Below are positions 45,394-49,076 of a stretch of DNA of 64,000 bases, piece by piece. The stretch spans positions 3,534,001 through 3,598,000 of the forward strand of contig NZ_PDJJ01000001.1 in the NCBI RefSeq assembly GCF_002563715.1, given 5' to 3'. Positions within the stretch are counted from its first letter, which is position 1. Every line of letters begins with the position of its first letter. The stretch is from Isoptericola jiangsuensis (GTDB lineage: Bacteria > Actinomycetota > Actinomycetes > Actinomycetales > Cellulomonadaceae). A program made the translations under genes and the position numbers. Below the pieces are notes generated by a model, which saw only the letters and a list, made by a program, of their open reading frames with translations, had not been told where the DNA came from and ran no database searches.

Positions 45394-45694
45394 CCGTCGA
45401 TCATGCCGGTGCGCCGGCGCGCCGACGACCCCTCTGAGCGGAAGGAGAGGTTCTCGGCCCGCAGCCCCCGCCGCGTTTTTCACCCGCACGGACCGAGCGA
45501 GCAACAGTGCCCGAGGCGACCATGAGAAGGACGGCGAGGCCGCACCCGCGACCAGCCCGTCCCCGCACCCCGCTGACCCCGGCCCGGCACCGTCCCCGGG
45601 GACACGACGACCACCCGCGGCAGTCCCGCGGAGGCCGCCACCTCGCAGGCGCGACGACGCGCCGCCTGTCCTCGCCCCCCGAGGAGGTGTCGTG
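45394..45694. other. 301-bp gap before the DUF2589 operon
   Basis: Shared upstream region of the divergent gene at 44527 and the DUF2589 operon. It should contain both promoters, but I cannot pick out clear boxes; a TTTTT run stands at 45476-45480. A GTG-started 62-codon frame (45507-45695) ends on the operon start codon, but its Arg/Pro composition and rare AGA/AGG codons argue against it being a gene. Confidence 0.4.
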
Positions 45695-45964
45695 ATGGCC
45701 GACGAGTTCCTCGTGCTCGGCCTCGGAGACGAGCACATGAAGGTCGGCAAGTCCTACCTGCTGCTCGGGGTCGCGCCCACCGCGGCGAAGGCCCGCGAGC
45801 TCGCCGAGGAGCTGCCCGCGGCCACGGCGTCCCGCGTCGTGATCGCCCAACGGCACGCCCTCGTCCGCCGGGTCCCCGCCGTCCGGCTCGAGGACCTCGA
45901 TGACAGCCTCGTCGACACGGCCACGTCGGCCCGCGCGACCTCCCGAAAGGAAGCCTCGTCATGA
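45695..45964 (+). CDS. Small protein opening the DUF2589 operon
   Basis: An 89-residue protein with no family I recognise. It begins MADEFLVLGLGDEHMKVGKS and has a helix rich in Ala/Glu in the middle (TAAKARELAEELPAATASRV). The ATG at 45695 is chosen over a GTG three bases earlier because GGAGG lies seven bases before it. It overlaps the first DUF2589 gene (ATGA), so it belongs to the operon. Confidence 0.7.
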   Translation: MADEFLVLGLGDEHMKVGKSYLLLGVAPTAAKARELAEELPAATASRVVIAQRHALVRRVPAVRLEDLDDSLVDTATSARATSRKEASS

Positions 45965-46575
45965 CACGCGCAGTCCAGGAGCTCTCCCAGATCCCCTTCG
46001 CCCACCTCATCGGCGGACCCATGAAGGCGGCCGTCGAGGCGCAGGCGCTCGCCGCGCAGAGCACGGTCGAGTTCATCCAGAAGGTCGGCTTCAAGCAGCC
46101 CGCCACGGGCGTCGCCGGCGACATGCTCTTCACCAACCAGTCCGGGAACGCCGAGGCGGGCGAGATCCGCAGCGTCACGTTCGAGTACGAGAAGACCGAC
46201 GAGAACAACGACGCCGCCACCTTCTCCCTGACCGTGCCGCTGCTCGCCATCGTGCCCATCCCGTACCTGCGCATCGACGAGATGACGATCGACTTCAAGG
46301 CGAAGCTCACCGACTCCGTCGTCCGCAACACCAACACGTCCTTCGAGCTCAACACGTCCGTGGGCGGCAGCTACAGCGCCTTCTGGTCCCCGGTGAAGCT
46401 CGACTTCCGCGTCAACGCCGCGTTCAAGACGTCCAGCGCGTCCCAGGCGACGTCGACCCGGGAGTACTCCATGGACATCCACGTGCGCGCCGTGCAGGAC
46501 ACCATGCCGGCCGGGCTGTCGCGCGTCATCGACATCCTCGAGGCCGCCATCGTCGAGGAGAAGGAAGCCGCGTGA
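45961..46575 (+). CDS. DUF2589 protein 1
   Basis: A 204-residue DUF2589-family protein, function unknown. The family pattern is clear: helix LIGGPMKAAVEAQALAAQST leading to VEFIQKVGF (residues 16-45), then a beta-rich core with VTFEYEKTDENNDAATFSLT, PLLAIVPIPYLRIDEMTIDF and the closing MPAGLSRVIDILEAAI. No signal peptide. It shares the start helix, the core and the end with DUF2589 protein 2 (47310-47879), so the two are paralogues. Such paired proteins may form a shared multimer, which is inferred. Confidence 0.82.
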   Translation: MTRAVQELSQIPFAHLIGGPMKAAVEAQALAAQSTVEFIQKVGFKQPATGVAGDMLFTNQSGNAEAGEIRSVTFEYEKTDENNDAATFSLTVPLLAIVPIPYLRIDEMTIDFKAKLTDSVVRNTNTSFELNTSVGGSYSAFWSPVKLDFRVNAAFKTSSASQATSTREYSMDIHVRAVQDTMPAGLSRVIDILEAAIVEEKEAA

Positions 46576-46594
46576 CGACCGGAAGGGCTGACAC

Positions 46595-47308
46595 ATGGCC
46601 AGGCTGAGCAGCATCGTCGGCGGCCTCCTGCGCGACCTCGCCGAGAGCCACAGCGTCGCCGACGCCTTCACCGTCCAGACGCTCGAGACGTACCGTCACG
46701 ACCCGGTGCTGTCCCAGCTGCCCGTCCCGAGGATGGCGATCGGCGAGGTGCAGCTCACGCTGCGCTTCGTCGTCGACGCCGTCGAGGACCCGACCGGCAC
46801 GGTCGACCCCCAGCAGCTCCTCGACGTGTGGCGTGCCGCCGTGCGGGACCGCGTCCTGCCCCGGGCGCTCGCGTCCGCCGGACGCCTCGACAACCCGCGG
46901 ATCGTCGCCGCCCTCGACAAGCGGCTCGCCCGCCCGGGGGTGGCGCAGGAGGTCGACCTCGCCTCGGCGCTCGACCCGAGCCGCACCGGCACCCTCGACG
47001 ACCTCACCGTGAAGTTCGTCGAGGAGCAGGTCGCCGCGCTCGCCCCCACCTTCCGCAAGAGCCTCGACGGCTCGTCGTTCTCCGAGGACCTGAAGGCGGT
47101 CGTGGCCGAGGAGGCCGGCGGGATCGAGCGCGAGGTGGAGGCGTTCCGGCAGGCGCAGGTCGCACCCCAGTCCGACGTCGACGTCCGCATCGACGCGGCC
47201 GCCCTCGCGGCGACGCCCGAGAGCCAGGTCAGCGAGCTGCGCCTCACCGTGCGGCCCGAGGAGCTGAGCCTCGGCGCGTCGGCCACCACCGGACTGAAGG
47301 CGGTGTGA
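46595..47308 (+). CDS. Companion protein between the two DUF2589 genes
   Basis: A 237-residue soluble protein without recognised family. Residues 40-60 (QLPVPRMAIGEVQLTLRFVV) recall the PIPYLRIDEMTIDF strand of the adjacent DUF2589 proteins. The middle is helical and charged, and the end again has strand-like repeats (VSELRLTVRPEELSLG). A GGAAGG ribosome site precedes the ATG. It may be a diverged structural partner of the DUF2589 pair. Confidence 0.72.
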   Translation: MARLSSIVGGLLRDLAESHSVADAFTVQTLETYRHDPVLSQLPVPRMAIGEVQLTLRFVVDAVEDPTGTVDPQQLLDVWRAAVRDRVLPRALASAGRLDNPRIVAALDKRLARPGVAQEVDLASALDPSRTGTLDDLTVKFVEEQVAALAPTFRKSLDGSSFSEDLKAVVAEEAGGIEREVEAFRQAQVAPQSDVDVRIDAAALAATPESQVSELRLTVRPEELSLGASATTGLKAV

Positions 47309-47309
47309 C

Positions 47310-47879
47310 GTGGCGACCGTCATCGACCCGCTGACCGCCCTGACGCTGGGCCAGGCCGTCGGCAACATCATGTCCGCGCTGGTCGACGCCCAGGCGGCCG
47401 CCGCCCGCACCACGGTCGACTTCATCGACGAGGTGGGCTTCGACGGCCCCGCCCTCACCGCGCCCGCCGACGCGCAGGACCCGCCCTCGCTGCGCCAGGT
47501 CTCGTTCAGCTACCGCAAGCGGGACGAGAACGGCGACGAGTCCGACTTCGAGGTACGCATCCCCCTGCTGGGCCTCGTCGACGTCCCCCTCATCGCGGTC
47601 CGGCGGGCCACCATCGACCTGGAGTTCCAGGTGTCGACGGTCGACGAGACCCCCACCAGGGCGACCCCGGCGTCGTCGTCGCCCGCCGTCGCGTCGTTCG
47701 CCCGGCCCGCCGTCCTGCGCGGGCAGGTGCTCAGCGGCCGGGCCACCCCGACCGACCAGCGGGCCTCCATCAAGGTGCGGGTCGAGGTGGAGAAGGCCGA
47801 GATGCCGCCCGGCCTGCTGCGCGCCCTCGACATCCTGGAGGTCGCCGCGAACGAGTCCAAGACCGAACCACAGGGGTGA
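47310..47879 (+). CDS. DUF2589 protein 2
   Basis: A 189-residue DUF2589-family protein. AVGNIMSALVDAQAAAARTT and VDFIDEVGF match the first paralogue, then VSFSYRKRDENGDESDFEVR, IPLLGLVDVPLIAVRRATID and the closing PPGLLRALDILEVAA. It is shorter in the middle, with a Thr/Ser/Pro-rich loop around residue 115. The GTG overlaps the neighbourhood of the previous stop (one base apart). Confidence 0.82.
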   Translation: MATVIDPLTALTLGQAVGNIMSALVDAQAAAARTTVDFIDEVGFDGPALTAPADAQDPPSLRQVSFSYRKRDENGDESDFEVRIPLLGLVDVPLIAVRRATIDLEFQVSTVDETPTRATPASSSPAVASFARPAVLRGQVLSGRATPTDQRASIKVRVEVEKAEMPPGLLRALDILEVAANESKTEPQG

Positions 47880-47883
47880 GCCG

Positions 47884-48429
47884 ATGTCCGTGGACGAGCT
47901 GACCCGCAACATCGTGCGGACCGTCGCCACCGCCGAGACGATCCTCACCCACTTCGAGGACGCCCTGCGCCGGTCCGGGTTCGCCGAGGGCGCCGAGCAG
48001 TACGGCCAGCTCGCCGACACCCTCCTCGGCCAACGGATGTGGGCGGCCTCCAGCGGCCAGCCGTCCGGAGCGCGCTTCGGCGCCGTGGGCGAGCGAGCCC
48101 AGGCGATCCACGCCCTGCTGCTGCCGTACGTGGAGGCGTTCCGCAAGATGGGGGCGCTCGCCGAGCCCGCGCTCGCCGACCCGCCGCCGACGGACGACGC
48201 CCCGCAGGACGCCGACGTCGCGCCCGTGCCGCAGGAGACCGGCGGCGCCGCGGGGCGCGTCCTCGCCGCCCTCGAACGGTCCGGCCGCCCGCTGTCGATG
48301 ACGGCCCTGCGGGCCGAGCTGCGGGTCCCCCGGGCCGAGCTCGACGCGGCGGTCCGGTGGCTCGGCGAGGAGCACCTCGTCGAGGTGCGGGACGCGGGCG
48401 GGCGCCAGATGGTGCGGAGCCTGCCGTGA
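47884..48429 (+). CDS. Helical protein with C-terminal winged helix
   Basis: A 181-residue protein in two parts joined by a Pro/Asp-rich linker (about 100-120). The N-terminal part is helical (TRNIVRTVATAETILTHFED). The C-terminal 60 residues look like a winged helix: RVLAALERSGRPLSMTALRA, PRAELDAAVRWLGEEHLVEV and a short wing. It could regulate the operon or join proteins, as winged helices do both. It overlaps the last gene (GTGA). Confidence 0.7.
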   Translation: MSVDELTRNIVRTVATAETILTHFEDALRRSGFAEGAEQYGQLADTLLGQRMWAASSGQPSGARFGAVGERAQAIHALLLPYVEAFRKMGALAEPALADPPPTDDAPQDADVAPVPQETGGAAGRVLAALERSGRPLSMTALRAELRVPRAELDAAVRWLGEEHLVEVRDAGGRQMVRSLP

Positions 48430-49076
48430 GGGTCGGGATCCTGAGCCTCGGCAGCCGCGGCGACGCGTCGACCTTCCAGGCCGGCGCGGTCGCGCTCGGG
48501 TTCACCGCGACCGCGCCGATCAAGAAGTCCGCCCCGACCCTCGCCGAGCTGAAGGACTTCTTCGCCCACGACCACGAGTGGCTCTACCTCGGGGGCCACT
48601 TCGGTGGGCGCGAGCTGTCCAACGACGCCGGCGACGTCACGCTCACCTTCCACGCCGACAGGATCGAGCTCGCCTCGGGCAAGGAGTCGGCGACCCTCCG
48701 TCGCGGTTCGGCGGACCTCGGCGTCGTCCCCCGGCTCGTGCTGTGGGGCGGGTGCAGCACCCTCGGCAACAACCAGCTCGTCGCCGACCTCGGCGTCCTG
48801 TTCGGCGCCCACGCCATGCTGGGCTTCCGCGACGTCACCGGCTGGAAGATGGTCGACGCCGCGCTCGGCAAGGGATTCCTGGCGGGCAAGAAGCACTTCT
48901 TCACCCGCGTCGCCGCGGACTCGACGCCCGCGGTCCTCACCGACGCGTGGATGCAGACCGCGAAGCTCGGCTGGGGCGGCGGGACCGAGGAGCACCGGTT
49001 CGCCGCCGTGGACGACACCGGTCAGCGCTGGGTCCTGCGCGACGGACGCGTCGTCAAGGACAAGAAGCTGTTCTGA
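48426..49076 (+). CDS. Putative caspase/CHAT-like protease of the DUF2589 operon
   Basis: A 216-residue protein, not a family I can name. The pattern fits the caspase fold: a first strand VGILSLGSRGDASTFQ, a helix and strand, the segment ELKDFFAHDHEWLYLGGHFG placing His58 after a hydrophobic strand, a stretch of strands, then PRLVLWGGCSTLG placing Cys110 after the next strand, and GAHAMLGFRDVTGW like the CHAT GA-V-x-x-x-W region. His and Cys are 52 residues apart, as in clan CD. GTG start overlaps the previous stop. The assignment is by eye and unproven. Confidence 0.6.
   Translation: MRVGILSLGSRGDASTFQAGAVALGFTATAPIKKSAPTLAELKDFFAHDHEWLYLGGHFGGRELSNDAGDVTLTFHADRIELASGKESATLRRGSADLGVVPRLVLWGGCSTLGNNQLVADLGVLFGAHAMLGFRDVTGWKMVDAALGKGFLAGKKHFFTRVAADSTPAVLTDAWMQTAKLGWGGGTEEHRFAAVDDTGQRWVLRDGRVVKDKKLF

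Follow-up and report, generated by a model that had tools for sequence, protein, structure and literature searches.

The operon at positions 45695-49076 of a 64,000-nucleotide stretch of Isoptericola jiangsuensis DNA (contig NZ_PDJJ01000001.1; the whole stretch is called the window) was found to contain six open reading frames (ORFs), g1 to g6, all on the + strand, including two DUF2589 genes and a last gene for a putative cysteine peptidase. Genome comparisons showed that, judged from sequence, the six-gene cassette was laterally acquired, and that g2-g3, often g2-g3-g4, is a conserved core across distant phyla after which the gene varies. The favoured reading, given a probability of roughly 40%, is that the operon is an acquired conflict or programmed-lysis module in which g6 would be a regulated cysteine peptidase effector.

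A preliminary description of the window had proposed six co-directional genes with overlaps or gaps of at most about 20 bases, and the ORF coordinates agree: g1/g2 and g5/g6 overlap by 4 bp, and gaps of 19, 1 and 4 bp separate g2/g3, g3/g4 and g4/g5, respectively. The genes, with protein lengths in amino acids (aa), are:

g1, 45695..45964, + strand: 89-aa protein opening the operon, of no family; orthologue in Cellulomonas sp. Leaf334 with 56% identity over 72 aa (blastp E 8e-21).
g2, 45961..46575, + strand: DUF2589 protein A, 204 aa (Pfam PF11655, E 2.9e-29, 102.8 bits).
g3, 46595..47308, + strand: 237-aa protein of an unnamed family, distant DUF2589 relative (12 homologues aligned, hhalign).
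g4, 47310..47879, + strand: DUF2589 protein B, 189 aa (Pfam PF11655, E 2.5e-20, 73.8 bits).
g5, 47884..48429, + strand: 181-aa protein, C-terminus winged-helix-like; homologues in Leaf334 and in G931, a genome of the class of Stutzerimonas.
g6, 48426..49076, + strand: 216-aa putative clan-CD-like cysteine peptidase (His58, Cys110), GTG start.

All six genes were found in identical order in Leaf334 (locus L061), with identities of 56%, 78%, 41%, 62%, 46% and 60% for g1 to g6, respectively. This repetition of the whole order indicates that the operon grouping is not chance, and the conserved linkage that the preliminary description had proposed to look for thus exists elsewhere, order intact. 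By eye, the Leaf334 operon is flanked by divergent glycoside-hydrolase-like genes, which differ from the neighbours in the window and place it at another genomic site. Relatives of g2 were detected in 1/18 genomes of the genus and in three of 221 family genomes, namely the window's own, G589 (inferred to be Leaf334) and G552. The closest MetI among the relatives (94%) is that of G504, where the flanking gene order from MetQ to dnaX is preserved and MetI adjoins the left-flank gene; blastn homology to the window ends at 45415 and restarts at 49070, delimiting one further feature:

45416..49069, no strand: acquired segment, G504 having a 34-bp stretch at the corresponding place (tblastn of flanking genes, blastn of junctions).

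Further, stretches from seven relatives (one cut by a contig end) gave no match to g1-g6 over 40 residues at E 1e-5, and neither an integrase nor an insertion sequence was seen at the junctions. The GC content is 0.723 in the operon, 0.782 in the left flank and 0.718 in the right flank. The earlier statement that GC content is normal and recent transfer not evident therefore holds for the composition, whereas the empty site in the close relative G504 speaks otherwise.

DUF2589 membership was defined as a PF11655 match above the curated cut-off of 23 bits, which both g2 and g4 pass, and Pfam confirms the two paralogues claimed previously. They share ~32% identity, g4 being the shorter and g2 the most conserved subunit (78% identity in Leaf334, 62% in G931). 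g3 begins with a helix and carries the strand motif 'FPVPR...VEL'; the strand motif similar to that of DUF2589, noted earlier, was backed by profile-profile comparison (hhalign, 62 columns, probability 75, single-comparison E 2.7e-5), and any given Pfam family was matched by at most one of 12 g3 homologues. At the sequence level, a homologous helix-strand unit is common to g2, g3 and g4. The predicted DUF2589 model, with a predicted local distance difference test score (pLDDT) of 55, was left out of the fold search.

No convincing match was obtained for g1, g3 and g6 in Pfam, NCBIfam, PADLOC and PHROGs, and g5 (identity 46% in Leaf334, 37% in G931) gave a sub-threshold winged-helix match only; the winged-helix protein claimed earlier is thus retained as a likeness of the g5 C-terminus, the match (DUF2582, E 0.0015) being below the Pfam cut-off. 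None of the six proteins matched a known anti-phage system (PADLOC 2023) at E 0.001, the best score being E 0.033 for g5 against a CARF model. Secretion component, holin and lysozyme families were likewise matched by none of the six, the rest of the genome not having been searched for secretion families.

PF11655 matches occurred in 1/98 relatives, 1/396 phylum genomes, 2/369 genomes in the class of G650 (centred on the genome of a Stutzerimonas locus) and 7/247 in the class of G658 (centred on a Saprospiraceae locus). Neighbourhoods were read in the PF11655 genomes, G552, five plasmid loci and MT839761, an unverified 4-kb gut record filed as Bacteriophage sp. This small census comprises 18 non-viral DUF2589 loci and 25 viral contigs (L015-L039), the latter near-copies of few kinds. 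g3 stands directly after DUF2589 in 12 of the 18 non-viral loci (window, L061, L074, L081, L082, L076, L095-L099 and L101; the arrangement is lacking in L100 and the five plasmid loci L008-L012) and in 0/25 viral contigs, some of them truncated near the DUF2589 gene; viral scans and plasmid tblastn for g3 found none. Six of the 12 loci built the g3 profile and hence match by construction, and an independent test is provided by the Bacteroidia, where g3 follows DUF2589 in 6/7 loci (E 6e-12 to 1e-24). In 8/12 loci, g3 is followed by another DUF2589 gene, with one gene intervening in L097. Among the 43 loci, g5 was found in three, g6 in two and g1 in two, exclusively profile-building loci. The co-occurrence of DUF2589 with a GGH/GGC protein that had been put forward for checking was seen, as the g6 family, in 2/43 loci.

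Upstream of the DUF2589 gene, and separated from it by no more than one gene, the viral contigs L016, L021, L023, L025 and L033 encode a protein of 164-170 aa whose strand motif resembles that of DUF2589 by eye, and L009:5805-7738 (Streptomyces plasmid p3) carries fragmented DUF2589 genes, as if decaying.

The genes after the core, several of them named by eye, are:

g6 family: 2/12 loci.
L096: Peptidase_S8 (subtilase), E 2.3e-51, after a helical gene.
L076: muramidase with peptidoglycan-binding domain, E 1.3e-69, preceded by a 159-aa gene.
L074: protein with an HxxGxxxD motif that we take to be M15-like (no Pfam match, NCBIfam E 0.07), following a helical gene.
L101:186-6818 (Bacteroidia genome G1255): DUF2589, g3 and helical gene, then a 1398-aa SpvB/TcdB-like protein.
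L095:9001-9318 and L099:4599-4832: small zinc-ribbon-like proteins directly after the second DUF2589 (Pfam below cut-off).
L097:6251-6682: small gene at the same place, zinc-ribbon-like by eye only.
L082: 329-aa protein of no family.
L098: helical gene alone.
L081: contig ends after the core.

The helical gene of L098 (L098:3317-3913) matches Pfam Sf6_terminase with 29.6 bits against a cut-off of 27. The g5 N-terminus is not claimed to be homologous to the helical gene behind g3 in L074, L096, L098 and L101 (E 0.016, probability 3). Where g3 is missing, DUF2589 adjoins GH24 lysozymes in L011 and L035, and L010 has a muramidase 2 kb downstream. Lysozyme genes flank DUF2589 in L035, one recognised by Pfam and the other by eye, and a short hydrophobic protein there resembles a holin by eye. 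LuxR-type regulator-like genes (by eye) were seen near the DUF2589 and lysozyme genes at L011:5015-5698 and L035:5818-6417.

That the core is shared with distant bacteria and followed by different end genes points to an undescribed system whose effector is exchangeable, "undescribed" because a literature search on DUF2589 and its accessions, covering no preprints, found no g2-g3-g4 core, g3 family or changing partner. We put it at nearly even odds, a little on the doubtful side, that DUF2589 and g3 are the constant core of a laterally moving system, present in three or more phyla and in a gut contig labelled as phage, in which a single assembly is joined to one of a set of interchangeable lytic or toxic effectors (subtilase, muramidase, caspase-like peptidase or SpvB/TcdB-like protein), and that the DUF2589 genes of viral contigs and proteobacteria that lack g3 are a sister form tied to lysozymes.

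The GGH (His58) and GGCS (Cys110) motifs pointed out earlier are both present in g6. H58 and C110 are invariant in 4/4 aligned full-length homologues (window, Cellulomonas, a Verrucomicrobia metagenome-assembled genome (MAG) and Sinorhizobium) in GHF and WGGC contexts, so that the clan CD pattern of a conserved His followed by a conserved Cys is found in all four, and each residue comes after a strand in the predicted g6 model. The best structural match was Tce1 (Foldseek ranking re-examined with VIA-align). CHAT (PF12770) membership was rejected, as neither CHAT nor caspase (Peptidase_C14) models of Pfam matched any of the four homologues at E 10, a search limited by HMMER filters that discard most matches above 0.1; the identical library detected CHAT in the Sinorhizobium neighbour P0010 (E 8e-17). 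A PDB sequence search found no relative of g6. Of the caspase/CHAT-like protease in the preliminary description, the His/Cys pair thus stood and the CHAT assignment did not, and g6 is regarded as a putative His58/Cys110 clan-CD-like cysteine peptidase.

Single-sequence searches with g6 found only the window's own copy in 101 family genomes and, in 396 phylum genomes, this copy and G492 (E 1.2e-4, 142 residues), the latter taken as chance because it apparently lies opposite an oxidoreductase-like ORF. The plasmid collection gave one relative, from Sinorhizobium terangae (31% identity, E 3e-21), and a search with it gave 11 further Bradyrhizobium records, two of which were opened and one protein read, a shortened copy that keeps the GHF motif with its His and lacks the Cys region. 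A DNA pattern (W-[GA]-G-C-[NS] then [VI]-T-G-W) scanned over genome contigs yielded 28 stretches, two encoding g6 relatives, in Leaf334 (60%) and the Verrucomicrobia MAG (38%); PF11655 matched in 0/9 genomes behind pattern matches. Two peptide patterns gave 108 stretches and no relatives in a genome scan, and viral scans for g6 gave none.

The Verrucomicrobia gene is solitary and adjoins transposase-like remnants (by eye), its genome lacking a DUF2589 match at E 0.001; its product (L052:5196-5963, partly masked) may, by eye, begin with a signal-like stretch. Among the ORFs of the 16.6-kb Sinorhizobium stretch, none matches g2-g5. The g6 homologue there comes after two proteins that look membrane-like by eye and is followed by a CHAT protein (weak AAA match) and a 1595-aa protein (weak AAA matches); this locus (L005:7986-15842) resembles a further caspase-rich conflict locus.

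In the favoured reading, the related subunits g2, g3 and g4 would assemble in the cytosol into a single complex that either senses a trigger or keeps its partner restrained, g5 may be an adaptor or a DNA-binding regulator of the operon, and g6 would be the effector, activated by the core and cleaving either cellular proteins or the core. In other genomes this core would be coupled to a subtilase, a muramidase or another partner, and the producing or a neighbouring cell would probably be damaged or lysed. The sensor/effector defence-or-stress module proposed in the preliminary description is in this way partly supported. The main rival, which we hold to be rather unlikely, makes the DUF2589 core a carrier or release module and g6 a payload acting outside the cell, by lysis, by antagonism or as injected cargo. 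It draws on Tce1, an effector loaded into a secretion tube according to PMC13323088, on the muramidase, GH24 lysozyme, subtilase and SpvB/TcdB-like partners elsewhere, and on the lysozymes and holin-like protein of L035, but the lack of secretion, holin and lysozyme families among the six operon proteins and the three Bacteroidia loci with merely a zinc-ribbon-like protein after the core count against it.

Somewhat less probable again is that g6 is no working peptidase, being inactive or another alpha/beta enzyme, and that the adjacency of hydrolases to DUF2589 is coincidental, since H58 and C110 are invariant in the four homologues, in constant contexts and after two model strands. Least probable is a regulatory or maintenance module in which g6 would process g2-g5 on a physiological signal and g5 would tune transcription, with no killing. 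The winged-helix-like g5 C-terminus would suit such a role, as would the up-regulation by lactate of the DUF2589-related AF0414-AF0417 in Archaeoglobus fulgidus, described in PMC3949148; however, the partners are lytic or toxin-like in several other loci, and the patchy distribution and the empty site in a relative argue against a housekeeping role.

Among known families, g2 and g4 are clear members of DUF2589, to which Pfam assigns no function; with a defined subunit order, a Pfam-less companion (g3) and some partners that are recognisable enzymes, this function becomes testable. Tce1 and Tce2 are putative cysteine-protease effectors of the Pseudomonas aeruginosa type VI secretion system (T6SS), as given in PMC13323088. 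Tce1, compared here without sequence alignment, differs from g6 in an extra N-terminal domain and packing into Hcp3; the six operon proteins match no secretion family. From CHAT and caspase proteins, including SAVED-CHAT, the g6 family is set apart by the Pfam results above; should g6 prove to be a clan-CD peptidase, a new family would join the bacterial caspase-type enzymes, one for which the searches gave no Pfam or PDB sequence relative. The nearest likeness in organisation is to the nucleoside triphosphate (NTP)-dependent conflict systems, which, according to PMC7159879, carry Trypco/trypsin or caspase modules and share a constant core with exchangeable effectors, including caspase-like peptidases. 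Unlike those systems, the operon matches no NTPase family, and a resemblance of DUF2589 to their Trypco2 was rejected as unsupported (1/11 members, E 0.14, 12.9 bits against a cut-off of 24.2). The DUF2589 core belongs to no system found, and its organisation, a constant core with an exchangeable effector, is of a known kind, that of the conflict systems.
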